Below the pieces are notes generated by a model, which worked only from the letters and a program-made list of their open reading frames with translations, was not told where the DNA came from and did no database searches. Of a stretch of DNA of 20,105 nt, positions 2,401-16,315 are shown piece by piece (the first letter of the stretch is position 1; each line of letters starts with the position of its first letter). A program made the position numbers and the translations under genes. Source of the DNA: a virus; the IMG/VR virus record IMGVR_UViG_3300037261_000054, positions 1 to 20,105 of that record; one strand, written 5' to 3'.

Positions 2401-2784
2401 GAAAAAATGTGCTTGGAGAGATGCTTCATTGATGTCTAATCTGTTTTCACATCTCTCCTGACGCCAGCCACTGCGGGTCTTCGACCAGACCTGTTGTGTG
2501 GGTGCAAACCCACTTCGTTCATGGGGCTTGGTCCCCACTATCTCGGAGCGACCCGAGAACGTCTAATAAGTGGTCCCTAAGCATCATATTCCGGGGTTCA
2601 ATAAGCCTCCTCGCCTTGCGGTTAGAGGAAACCACTTTATCTATTCGAGTCGGTGGCTCGCCGCCCTCCCGGCGACGATTTACCTGTTGCGACAGCACCA
2701 CCTACTTAACCTCTCTGCGACACTCAGCATAGTGCCAAGGAGTTCGGGTAAAGCCGACCTCCCGCATCCTACCAGAGAGAACTA
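2401..2784 (-). ncRNA. Candidate structured noncoding RNA between the Sm-like gene and tRNA-Thr
   Basis: About 384 nt hold no convincing gene but many compact helices. On the minus strand: GGAG/CTCC plus TCGG/CCGA (2762-2739); a three-way junction closed by GGTGG/CCACC (2702-2698 with 2656-2652), enclosing CTGT/ACAG (loop CGCA) and TCGCCG/CGGCGA (2675-2658); a 7-bp long-range helix AAGTGGT/ACCACTT (2637-2631 with 2574-2568) enclosing CCTC/GAGG with an inner GCAA loop; then hairpins at 2558-2541 (6 bp), 2537-2522 (5 bp), 2513-2498 (6 bp), 2491-2476 (5 bp) and 2458-2415 (9 bp), the last followed 7 nt later by T6. All are perfect Watson-Crick pairs read by eye. The strand follows from the same-direction neighbours; the hairpins alone do not decide it. 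I do not recognise tmRNA, RNase P RNA or a group I intron core. Confidence 0.55.
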
Positions 2785-3117
2785 TTACGCCGAGATCGGC
2801 GCTTTCAGTTCGAAGCGTGTCCCACGCACCGTGACCGCAGTCACCGTGTCGAGGTTCACGTTGCGGAAGTCATCAGTCGCCACATCCCAAACGCAACGCA
2901 GGTTCGGATGGTTCGGGTTCTGGAGGATACCATCCCGAGACAGACCGATCTTGACGTTTGCGGGCATCCCCACAAAGCGCTCTTCGAGCGGAGCAGCACT
3001 GATCTGCATGCGGCGGCCCGAACCGTCCTTCTTGACGAACTCGACAGCCACGAACGTTGAGCCAGCACTATCGAGTAAGCGATTGATAAGCTGACGGCGA
3101 GCGGTAACGTTTGCCAT
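2785..3117 (-). CDS. Sm-like/SH3 beta-barrel (WYL_2, DUF2693-type) phage protein
   Basis: This 110-residue protein opens MANVTARRQLINRLLDSAGS. A beta-rich core follows: TFVAVEFVKKDGSGRRMQIS, later NLRCVWDVATDDFRNVNLDTV. The pattern "F.KKDGs.R.M ... VWD...dFR.vnLDtV" is that of the small phage WYL_2/DUF2693 family, described as an Sm-like SH3 barrel and thought to act as a nucleic-acid-binding or transcription-linked module. No ligand residues can be assigned from sequence. AAGG sits 9 nt before the ATG, and a near-consensus sigma70 promoter lies 36 nt upstream inside the end of the preceding gene, so expression is likely strong. The downstream structured region and tRNA are probably on the same transcript. 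Confidence 0.7.
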   Translation of the reverse strand: MANVTARRQLINRLLDSAGSTFVAVEFVKKDGSGRRMQISAAPLEERFVGMPANVKIGLSRDGILQNPNHPNLRCVWDVATDDFRNVNLDTVTAVTVRGTRFELKAPISA

Positions 3118-3832: not shown

Positions 3833-3847
3833 CGCGTATGGCGTCAA
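3819..3847 (-). promoter_or_regulatory. Sigma70-type promoter for the 47-aa/zinc-finger/CPEH unit
   Basis: On the minus strand the -35 is TTGACG (3847-3842), the spacer is exactly 17 bp, and the -10 is TATAAG (3824-3819). The -35 overlaps the TGA stop of the GIY-YIG-like gene within GCTTGACG. The start codon of the membrane protein lies about 27 nt beyond the -10. Confidence 0.78.
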
Positions 3848-4260
3848 GCATTTTCAGCAAACGTTGAAACCCTTGTTTTTCCTGAAAAACCATAATGAGA
3901 AGCAATTTGTCTAATTCTCTCTCGACTGAGATTATACATTTTTGCTATGGAGGCGAATGATAGATTTGTTGTCTTTACCAATCGCAAAATCTCTGTGTGT
4001 TCTGGGCGGATTCTTGCTGAATGGATATCTCTTGTCAACATATCATCAGACCAGTGAAACCATTCTCCGCGAATATGCAGTTCTTTGTATTTTTTATGAT
4101 ACAATCTCTCGGTTTCTAGTCCTCCTTCTATAATTCTAATCAATGTGAGGATTTCATAATGATTATTCTGTAACTGCCGTATACGTTTTTCAACCGGACC
4201 ATCGGAATATCCGATTTTGACAGGTCCATGTTCTCCTGCTCGAATTATGTATACTGACAT
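3844..4260 (-). CDS. GIY-YIG-like (T5orf172) protein with C-terminal sigma-region-4-like helix-turn-helix
   Basis: 138 residues from ATG 4260, which has AAGGAG 8 nt upstream; a longer frame from 4293 would run into the promoter. The N-terminal 75 residues carry a divergent GIY-YIG nuclease core: VYIIRAG (Tyr4), KIGYS (15-19), R26 in VEKRIRQLQ, and GGLETERLYHKKY with Glu49 as the expected metal ligand, then GEWFHW. This is the T5orf172/MUG113 type. Residues 92-124 (ILRLVKTTNLSFASIAKMYN, then LSRERIRQIA) resemble sigma70 region 4.2, a DNA-binding helix-turn-helix often seen as the targeting tail of phage GIY-YIG enzymes. The gene is AT-rich (about 37% G+C over 3901-3960), suggesting a mobile origin. 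A strong promoter drives it. It could be a homing endonuclease or a repurposed regulator. Confidence 0.82.
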   Translation of the reverse strand: MSVYIIRAGEHGPVKIGYSDGPVEKRIRQLQNNHYEILTLIRIIEGGLETERLYHKKYKELHIRGEWFHWSDDMLTRDIHSARIRPEHTEILRLVKTTNLSFASIAKMYNLSRERIRQIASHYGFSGKTRVSTFAENA

Positions 4261-4281
4261 TGCTTTTCTCCTTGATTTAGT

Positions 4282-4310
4282 ATCATAGCACATGTTGCAT
4301 CAGTTGTCAA
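4282..4310 (-). promoter_or_regulatory. Sigma70-type promoter, leftward, for the GIY-YIG-like gene
   Basis: -35 TTGACA (4310-4305), 17-bp spacer ending TGTGC, -10 TATGAT (4287-4282). It is back to back with the rightward promoter at 4334, the -35 boxes being 23 nt apart. Confidence 0.85.
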
Positions 4311-13695: not shown

Positions 13696-15821
13696 TGGCA
13701 TCGTATCCTCGCATACGCACAGCGATTTTTGATGTTGAGTCGGATGGTCTTCTAGACCAACTCACGACGATTCATTGCTTGCTGATTAGAGATTTCGAGC
13801 GACGAGTGACGTATCGTTTCCGTCGTAACGATGTCGAGGATACGATTGACGAAGGTCTCGACCTGTTGGAAGACGCAGAGATTGTTGTAGGTCACAATTC
13901 TGTAATGTTCGACGAACCCGCGTTGTGTAAAGTTTACGACGGAATAGCCCTTAGAGGGCTAAAATATGATACACTTGTCATGGCTCGCATGTGCTTTGCC
14001 GATCAGAAAGACAAAGATTTCGAACTGTGGCGGCGTGGCAAGCTTCCAGGCAAATACATCGGCTTCCACACATTGAAGGCGTGGGGTTGGCGATTGGGAA
14101 TGCATAAAGGTGACTATGCGGATGACAAAGCCGCCGAGGCTAAAGAACTCGGTATTGAAGACACTACACAACTTGTCAAGTTCGTGTGGGGTCAGTGGTC
14201 GCAGCCTATGGAGGATTATTGCGCACTCGACGTGGACATCACGACTATGCTATGGTCACGTATCGTGGCTATGCACTGGGACCCACGTGCTATTGAGCTT
14301 GAGCACGCAATCCATACGCTTATGTTCCAGCAGGAGCAAAATGGTATCCATTTTAATACCACTGCTGCCGAGGCGCTTGCAGTCCAACTTGAAGACGAAT
14401 GCCACAAGCTTGAAATCGAAGTCATCGAGCATTTCGGAAAATGGTGGAAACCCACTAAGAAACGCATAGTTCGTCAGCTTTGGGAAGACCCAGATGGCGT
14501 CAACAAAGGCAAGAAATACGAGGGACTGTGGAATGGCACTTACGAGGACGGAACGGTTATCGAAACCACACGACGAGCGATTTGGGCGGATGTCACGTAT
14601 CCTAAAAGAAACGTCAGCTATGGGGACGTGCTCAGAGGAAGCTACTCAACAGATGCTCCTTTCTGTAAGGTCGAGAGAATTGAGTTCAACCCTGGAAGCC
14701 GAGTGCAAATCATCGACAGGTTCACCACCGTCTATAATTGGAACCCCGTGGACTTCACTGAAAAAGGAAATCCAACAGTCGATGACGATGTTCTTCGCAC
14801 CCTTATCGGTCACATACCGATGGCTGAGGAACTTGCGGAAGTCTTCTACTACAACAAAAGACTGAGCCAACTTAAAACTGGTGCGAAAGCGTGGCTGAAA
14901 AAGGTTCAACCTGATGGTAAAATACATGCTTACGTTAATGTTGGTGGGACCATTTCTGGTCGTGCTTCTCATGTCGATCCGAATTTGGCTCAGGTCCCTA
15001 AGGTCAAATACGTCAAAGCGGTTGACGCAGATGGAAATGTGATCCTCAATGCCAAAGGGAAACCTAAAGAGGTAGTTGGGTTAGGCAGAGCAGGCGATCA
15101 TGGCTTCGAATGCCGATCTTTGTTTTATGTTCCAGCACCATGGAAGATGATGGGCATTGATATGTCTGGCATCGAGCTAAGATGCTTTGGTGAGAAGCTG
15201 TCGAAATACGATGGAGGGGAATATCTCAATCTCGTATTAAGCGGTGATCCTCATTCATACAATCAACAATTGGCTGAACTCCCTACTCGTGATAATGCCA
15301 AGACGTTCATCTATGCTCTTTTATACGGGGCTGGGGATATCAAGCTTGGGAGTATTGTCGCTCCTCTCGCAGACGAAGAAGAACAGAGAGCGATTGGTGT
15401 TCGTCTTCGTGCTCGGTTTATGTCTGGTCTTCCTGCTTACGCTCTTTTAGTAAAGGAGATTAAACGCTATGCGCGATCAGGGTTCATTCCTGGTCTGGAC
15501 GGCAGAAAACTGTATGTCAGATCACCCCACTCAGCTCTCAACGTTTGGCTCCAAAGTGACGCCGCTCTGCTTAGTAAGAAATGGATTACTCTCACAGTGG
15601 AGAAGTTAGAAGCTCATGGATTACGCCATGGTTGGGATGGAGACTTTGTTCAATTGCTTTGGATACACGATGAATGTCAATCTGCAATAAAACCAGAAAT
15701 TTCGGAGTTGTTTTCAGAAACTTCTGTTTTATCAGCTAAAGAAGCTGGTAAGTTTTTCAATTATAATTGTCCTATTGATGTAGTTCCTAAAATTGGACAA
15801 ACATGGGCAGAATGTCATTGA
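13695..15821 (+). CDS. Family A DNA polymerase with 3'-5' exonuclease domain (T7-like)
   Basis: 708 residues from ATG 13695, which shares a base with the preceding TGA; no strong ribosome-binding site, so coupling is likely. The exonuclease is complete: Exo I FDVESDG (Asp13, Glu15), Exo II VGHNSVMFDE (Asp73), Exo III YCALDVD (Tyr175, Asp179). The polymerase motifs are A GIDMSGIELR (487-496, catalytic Asp489), B RDNAKTFIYALLYG (532-545, Arg532, Lys536) and C WIHDE (656-660). Motif B is almost identical to T7 gp5. No 5'-3' exonuclease domain. It replicates the phage genome together with the helicase and nucleases nearby. The last 55 codons (from about 15655, at motif C) turn abruptly AT-rich, merging with the HNH gene that overlaps by 19 nt. 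Confidence 0.95.
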   Translation: MASYPRIRTAIFDVESDGLLDQLTTIHCLLIRDFERRVTYRFRRNDVEDTIDEGLDLLEDAEIVVGHNSVMFDEPALCKVYDGIALRGLKYDTLVMARMCFADQKDKDFELWRRGKLPGKYIGFHTLKAWGWRLGMHKGDYADDKAAEAKELGIEDTTQLVKFVWGQWSQPMEDYCALDVDITTMLWSRIVAMHWDPRAIELEHAIHTLMFQQEQNGIHFNTTAAEALAVQLEDECHKLEIEVIEHFGKWWKPTKKRIVRQLWEDPDGVNKGKKYEGLWNGTYEDGTVIETTRRAIWADVTYPKRNVSYGDVLRGSYSTDAPFCKVERIEFNPGSRVQIIDRFTTVYNWNPVDFTEKGNPTVDDDVLRTLIGHIPMAEELAEVFYYNKRLSQLKTGAKAWLKKVQPDGKIHAYVNVGGTISGRASHVDPNLAQVPKVKYVKAVDADGNVILNAKGKPKEVVGLGRAGDHGFECRSLFYVPAPWKMMGIDMSGIELRCFGEKLSKYDGGEYLNLVLSGDPHSYNQQLAELPTRDNAKTFIYALLYGAGDIKLGSIVAPLADEEEQRAIGVRLRARFMSGLPAYALLVKEIKRYARSGFIPGLDGRKLYVRSPHSALNVWLQSDAALLSKKWITLTVEKLEAHGLRHGWDGDFVQLLWIHDECQSAIKPEISELFSETSVLSAKEAGKFFNYNCPIDVVPKIGQTWAECH

Positions 15822-16315
15822 TTAGTCGCAAAGAAGCTAAGGCGCTCGGGCTTACACAATACGATTCCGCACATCCTTGCAAAGCAGGACATTTTGGTAA
15901 ACGTGAAGTTATTAACTGTGTATGTCTGGAATGCAAAAAGATCAGTTATACTAAGTGGCAAACTGGGGCAAAAGGAATGGCGTATCGGGCTAAAGAAATG
16001 GTAAGATATCGCGAACAACCTAAAAATAGAATGTTGAGCCGAGTAAAAACCAGAGCCGGAATAAAAGGAATCGAATTTGATCTTACTATAAATGACATAA
16101 AGATTCCCAACGAATGTCCTGTTTTAGGTATTCCACTGTTGATCGCCAATGGCTATAGATTAGACAATTCTCCATCTATTGATCGAGTAGATAGCAGCAA
16201 AGGATATATTCGTGGGAATATTAAGATTATAAGTTGGAGAGCGAATAAAATCAAGTCTGATGCCACGGCTGACGAACTTCTCGCTATCGCAGCATACATG
16301 AAACAAAACGCTTGA
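15803..16315 (+). CDS. HNH endonuclease with N-terminal zinc knuckle
   Basis: 170 residues. The N-terminal zinc knuckle is PCKAGHFGKREVINCVCLEC (Cys26, His30, Cys41, Cys44; Cys39 also near). The HNH core is CPVLGIPL (105-112) and SPSIDRVDSSKGYIRGNIK, followed by SWRANKIKSDAT. This is the free-standing phage HNH family often found beside replication genes. Two ATGs, 15803 and 15812, are possible; both overlap the polymerase stop. Gene and upstream polymerase tail are AT-rich (about 33% G+C over 15661-15780 against about 58% over 9901-9960). That suggests arrival by homing, with co-conversion of the polymerase end. The target is probably the polymerase 3' region in phages lacking the gene. Confidence 0.85.
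   Translation: MGRMSLISRKEAKALGLTQYDSAHPCKAGHFGKREVINCVCLECKKISYTKWQTGAKGMAYRAKEMVRYREQPKNRMLSRVKTRAGIKGIEFDLTINDIKIPNECPVLGIPLLIANGYRLDNSPSIDRVDSSKGYIRGNIKIISWRANKIKSDATADELLAIAAYMKQNA

Follow-up and report, generated by a model that had tools for sequence, protein, structure and literature searches.

GOLLD and ROOL are phage RNAs that are often located near tRNA islands (PMC12286853). Many GOLLD members are longer than 800 nt, and the RNA assembles into a homo-oligomeric cage and is induced during lysis (PMC12286853). Should unrelated structured RNAs share one neighbourhood in related phages, comparing their tRNA processing, lytic timing and partners would give a handle on the role of these abundant or cage-forming RNAs. 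Here we describe a candidate structured RNA of 384 nt (2401-2784, minus strand), which occupies the gene-free stretch from a stop codon to a tRNA gene in a viral DNA of 20,105 nucleotides (the whole stretch analysed, hereafter “the window”). The claim stays limited to a putative structured RNA of no known family, represented by a single sequence. A previous sequence-only reading of the window had singled out the same stretch; its observation is largely right, while its interpretation exceeds the data.

Gene neighbourhood and predicted transcript

The source contig is a 20.1-kb IMG/VR fragment whose genes include rIIA, an SNF2-type helicase, a family-A DNA polymerase and a XerC-like recombinase, and this gene content places it, judging from sequence similarity, with phages of Alphaproteobacteria of the phiCbK/DSS3P8-like kind. 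The DNA polymerase shares 52% identity with that of Microcystis phage Mwe-JY26 and about 45% with those of phiCbK-like Caulobacter phages, and rIIA next resembles its equivalent in DSS3P8-like roseophages. A scan of IMG/VR with the DNA polymerase gave no matches and a search of a genome collection with rIIA found none, whereas the alignment of a WYL_2-like gene product gave 15 matches in that collection, with titles naming Rhodobacteraceae or related genera. On the minus strand, the gene order is that WYL_2-like gene of 110 aa (2785-3117, PHROG 2267), the RNA stretch, tRNA-Thr(TGT), two small genes and the XerC-like tyrosine recombinase (1341-1934), which lies less than 0.5 kb from the RNA stretch and served as the synteny anchor of the locus. 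The orthologue of the 110-aa gene in a related contig (L002, see below) matches Pfam WYL_2, an Sm-like SH3 barrel, at a sub-threshold score. Elsewhere on the contig, an HslV-like peptidase gene of the proteasome beta type is present at 728-1210, and the phages DSS3P8, RXM and RcXuper carry counterparts near the recombinase, annotated as proteasome subunit beta. Among the ORFs at 250-756, 3844-4293 and 15803-16315, one is an HNH endonuclease by its PHROG match, and the other two look by eye like GIY-YIG and HNH homing-type endonucleases.

The stretch 2401-2784 is non-coding according to a codon-usage scan, and its ORFs have no credible family match in Pfam or PHROG; codon usage and domain searches together gave no sign of a protein-coding gene in any frame, and coding ORFs were rejected. 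The earlier description of the stretch as gene-free was thus borne out, and the match to a protein family that the same reading had named as the finding to look for against its proposal was searched for, with none credible. A same-direction tRNA had also been reported downstream, and corresponds to tRNA-Thr(TGT) at 2400-2325, minus strand, whose 5' end directly abuts the candidate RNA.

A sigma-70 promoter, TTGACA-17-TATAAT, is found at 3181-3153 (minus strand) with 12/12 matches to the consensus. It had been described as near-consensus and as upstream of the RNA; it is in fact a perfect consensus and does lie upstream, but the 110-aa gene separates it from the RNA, so that it precedes the WYL_2-like gene and hence also the RNA and tRNA-Thr. 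The same reading had placed a terminal hairpin before a T6 run at the end of the RNA. The hairpin is there (2458-2415; a stem of 9-10 bp, 2458-2449 with 2424-2415, around a loop of some 24 nt), but the T6 run lies 7 nt beyond the stem, and terminator prediction gave nothing on the minus strand from the promoter to the tRNA; a canonical terminator at this position was therefore rejected. With a promoter preceding the 110-aa gene and no predicted terminator before the tRNA, the RNA would be the middle part of a transcript comprising the WYL_2-like mRNA, the RNA and tRNA-Thr.

This arrangement could also suit a cis-acting 3' UTR and tRNA leader, the hairpins of which shield the 3' end of the WYL_2 mRNA and space the tRNA for processing: operon and strand are shared, the promoter lies only upstream of the WYL_2 gene, and the terminal hairpin and a T-rich spacer come directly before the tRNA. 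We consider such a leader unlikely, since a protective 3' hairpin would need nothing like the length and elaboration of this stretch, and since its counterpart in L002 has repeated junctions with compensatory changes and is not followed by a tRNA.

Predicted helices and their significance

All the helices proposed in the sequence-only reading were found on the minus strand of 2401-2784. Following the RNA from its 5' end, a three-way junction that was absent from that reading spans 2779-2711, where a 7-bp helix (CUCUCUG/CAGAGAG) closes the hairpins 2763-2738 and 2737-2718; the closing helix has a pair probability of at least 0.97. In the second three-way junction (2702-2652), GGUGG/CCACC closes the hairpins CUGU-CGCA-ACAG and UCGUCGCC-GGGAG-GGCGGCGA. 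Folded alone, this junction reaches -24.1 kcal/mol; within it the hairpin 2678-2658 alone is certain, and the closing helix competes with the pairing 2706-2697/2574-2565. The third junction (2637-2568) is closed by AAGUGGU/ACCACUU (2637-2631/2574-2568), and encloses an internal-loop hairpin (2633-2604) with a GCAA loop, in the form CC-GCAA-GG. The segment 2558-2476 is taken up by four hairpins in a row (2558-2541, 2537-2522, 2513-2498 and 2491-2476), each with a stem of 5-6 bp and a loop of 4-6 nt, and the terminal hairpin follows.

The segment 2574-2568 has two possible partners: it pairs with 2637-2631 in the fold of the earlier reading, or lies in the helix 2706-2697/2574-2565 of the minimum free energy (MFE) fold. 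The MFE fold has -140.3 kcal/mol and the other -135.9 kcal/mol, 4.4 kcal/mol apart, and predicted thermodynamics does not select the earlier fold over the MFE helix.

The minus strand of 2401-2784 has an MFE z-score of -3.26, with none of 100 dinucleotide-shuffled copies as stable (repeats with smaller shuffle sets gave -3.18 and -2.4 to -2.8), and the plus strand one of -2.20. This strand difference bears on the proposal that the stretch is a DNA element, either a site for the XerC-like recombinase (as a folded single strand or an inverted repeat) or a replication origin. What speaks for such an element is the proximity of the recombinase, which lies less than 0.5 kb away in this contig and immediately next to the gap in L002; the more significant fold on the transcribed strand, the presence of the recombinase without such a stretch in close relatives and the lack of a long inverted-repeat core make it very improbable.

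When the contig was scanned in 104 strand-windows of 384 nt, using fewer shuffles, 2401-2784 ranked about fifth; two windows fell below -3.2, and some coding windows reached equal z-scores. The stretch has five hairpins with a perfect Watson-Crick stem of 5 bp or more, where 1.7 would be expected; 20 of 1000 shuffles had as many, and some coding windows hold 6-7. Since similar values occur in coding windows, the evidence from thermodynamics by itself is moderate: the folding is above chance, real and not exceptional.

The same figures leave room for GC-rich filler that folds by chance, left by the turnover of a tRNA island and holding no functional RNA. A moderate z-score matched by some coding windows, no homologues, and relatives that lack the stretch would all be expected of filler. 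On the other hand, 384 nt of non-coding DNA are unusual in so compact a window, as the codon-usage scan shows, pseudo-tRNA remnants were not found in 2401-2784 at E<=10, and the orthologous gap of L002 is structured too, all of which makes filler improbable, to about the same degree as the cis-acting leader.

Known families, related phages and the GOLLD comparison

Rfam 15 at gathering thresholds detected tRNA only, and at E<=10 gave chance matches for 2401-2784, with no family among them. This agrees with the earlier statement that the RNA could not be matched to GOLLD, ROOL, tmRNA, RNase P RNA or a group I intron; on this basis none of them is recognisable here. DNA similarity searches of GenBank phages and PLSDB plasmids returned tRNA or random matches only. 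Exact segments of the RNA were found in IMG/VR 0 times (CGCAAGNCGAGGAGGNTTA), 3 times (CCGGAATATGATGCTT) and 24 times (CCGCAAGGCGAGGAGG), and none of these matches was a homologue by model. A covariance model of 2702-2567 (R2) found only itself when run over 98 loci; in 49 complete or partial phage records it gave two matches, both weak and at chance level. The term “class”, as used in the sequence-only reading, is therefore not supported, with no second member in GenBank phages, PLSDB plasmids, IMG/VR patterns or R2 searches, and nothing in the analysis backs its suggestion of a regulator or decoy.

The finding is best supported by L002 (also L014; IMGVR_UViG_3300047172_000052), which has a structured RNA in the orthologous gap. 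Its gene order is as in the source contig, with a homologue of the 110-aa gene (45% identity), a gene-free gap of 366 nt and the recombinase (54%). The gap (L002:5322-5687) folds with a z-score of -4.64, has no Rfam match, and can be read as a row of three three-way junctions, of which the last two are a tandem duplication; the duplicated hairpin stem stays paired even though two G-C pairs (alignment columns 8-29 and 12-25) are replaced by A-U. It shares with the window RNA its place after the WYL_2-like gene, a similar length and a chain of three-way junctions, but differs in having the recombinase directly after it, without a tRNA, and in showing no sequence similarity: local alignment of the two RNAs was no better than for shuffles. 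R2 gave a weak match to the third junction of L002 (11.5 bits, the second-highest score in 85.6 kb scanned with filters off), which was not reciprocal, as the reverse covariance search (R1 on the source window) produced only noise.

Other relatives fill the equivalent gap with protein. Small protein genes occupy it in Mwe-JY26 and in the contigs L162 and L163, with the recombinase present, and the RNA would thus be optional cargo. A further gene-free stretch was found in Sphingobium phage Lacusarx (L041:7088-7363); it is unannotated, has a z-score of -3.61 and no Rfam match, and follows a TTGACA-type promoter directly before a tRNA of a large tRNA island. This leader resembles the window RNA in being gene-free, folded, directly before a tRNA and near the same recombinase, yet it has no sequence similarity and another fold, and lies downstream, not upstream, of the recombinase. 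The Lacusarx tRNA island contains more gene-free gaps between its tRNAs. The RNAs of L002, Lacusarx and the window are short enough for easy probing and expression, and the locus, where structured RNAs of different kinds neighbour one set of genes, is of greater interest than the single sequence described here.

The comparison with GOLLD made in the earlier reading proved apt, as two relatives carry GOLLD beside the same recombinase gene with tRNAs embedded. Directly downstream of the XerC-like recombinase, Rfam recognizes GOLLD at L048:8307-8791 (172 bits) and L024:7965-8449 (137 bits), with tRNA-Arg and tRNA-Lys as the embedded tRNAs. The L024 score is below the Rfam gathering score of 150, so that default annotation would miss this GOLLD.

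The candidate window RNA and GOLLD (RF02032) are both large, elaborate non-coding phage RNAs beside a tRNA, in the same recombinase neighbourhood, with one weakly similar pair of hairpins. These are two abutting hairpins at 2658-2605 that weakly resemble a pair in the GOLLD 3' domain, and beyond them the RNAs are not alignable. Among the loci compared by blastn and local alignment, the best match of the window RNA is a 38-nt hairpin in the GOLLD 3' domain of L024 (L024:8166-8203), and 1 of 500 shuffles aligned as well. A GOLLD model of this lineage (R3) scores 2605-2658 at 8.7 bits (E 0.82), the top of 57.9 kb, a score equalled by contigs that share a 16-mer by chance. GOLLD of L024 and L048 is about 1.2 kb long and has the tRNA inside it, whereas the window RNA has 384 nt, precedes its tRNA and is missing the hallmark 3' end (GUGUAAUCUCAGCC). 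The Rfam GOLLD model, which covers the conserved 3' region, has no match in 2401-2784 at E<=10, and on this result and on length, membership in GOLLD was rejected.

The hairpin pair could nevertheless come from a degraded or shortened GOLLD, a divergent remnant or minimal form of an ancestral GOLLD at this locus, and the L024 alignment and the first rank of the same pair with R3 would fit such an origin. We regard it as distinctly unlikely: the Rfam model is silent here, yet gives 137-172 bits on the GOLLDs of relatives, the GUGUAAUCUCAGCC end and most of the length are absent, and R3 gives equal scores to unrelated contigs that happen to contain this 16-mer. It stands behind the cis-acting leader and the chance filler, which are about level, and ahead of the recombinase DNA element. 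ROOL is likewise an ornate phage RNA near tRNA islands (PMC12286853), but no match to it was found here with Rfam 15 at E<=10. Kinship of the window RNA with the L002 RNA and with GOLLD, as far as alignments and models indicate, is suggestive at best, and it is assigned to neither.

A proposed route from transcript to RNA

RNase P cleavage at the 5' end of a tRNA is a step of tRNA maturation. From the arrangement described, we infer transcription, processing, stability and trans function of the window RNA as follows. The consensus promoter at 3181-3153 would drive a WYL_2 transcript carrying the RNA as its 3' part and running into tRNA-Thr, and RNase P would create the RNA 3' end by cutting at the tRNA 5' end (2400/2401). 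The RNA 5' end may arise from a cut, or from an exonuclease stopping at the first junction, right after the stop codon. Some 380 nt long, compact and resistant to nucleases, the released RNA would act in trans, belong with ornate phage RNAs such as GOLLD and ROOL, be made together with tRNA-Thr during lytic infection and work as a structural RNA.

A structured RNA is favoured by the fold above shuffles, the excess of hairpins, the absence of coding signal, the promoter, the tRNA and the context provided by L002, Lacusarx and GOLLD; the failure to find a homologue, and with it any covarying pairs, the coding windows of equal z-score, the ambiguous fold, the unalignable L002 RNA with its weak, one-way model match and the protein genes in other relatives count against it. 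Weighing both, we give an even chance to 2401-2784 being a real structured RNA, released from the tRNA-Thr transcript as proposed. That it stands for a class of its own among ornate phage RNAs, made up of compact, RNase P-released chains of three-way junctions and hairpins in a cargo position beside the recombinase, interchangeable there with GOLLD or other RNAs, is a possible but tentative extension. If RNA classes do swap at this position, a shared role is suggested; by analogy with GOLLD and ROOL it might be that of a scaffold, which for the window RNA we hold to be doubtful.

Finally, in an observation made post hoc that may be due to chance, 8 nt of the RNA (2700-2693, UGGUGCUG) match the complement of the tRNA-Thr 3' end (2332-2325, CAGCACCA) at every position.
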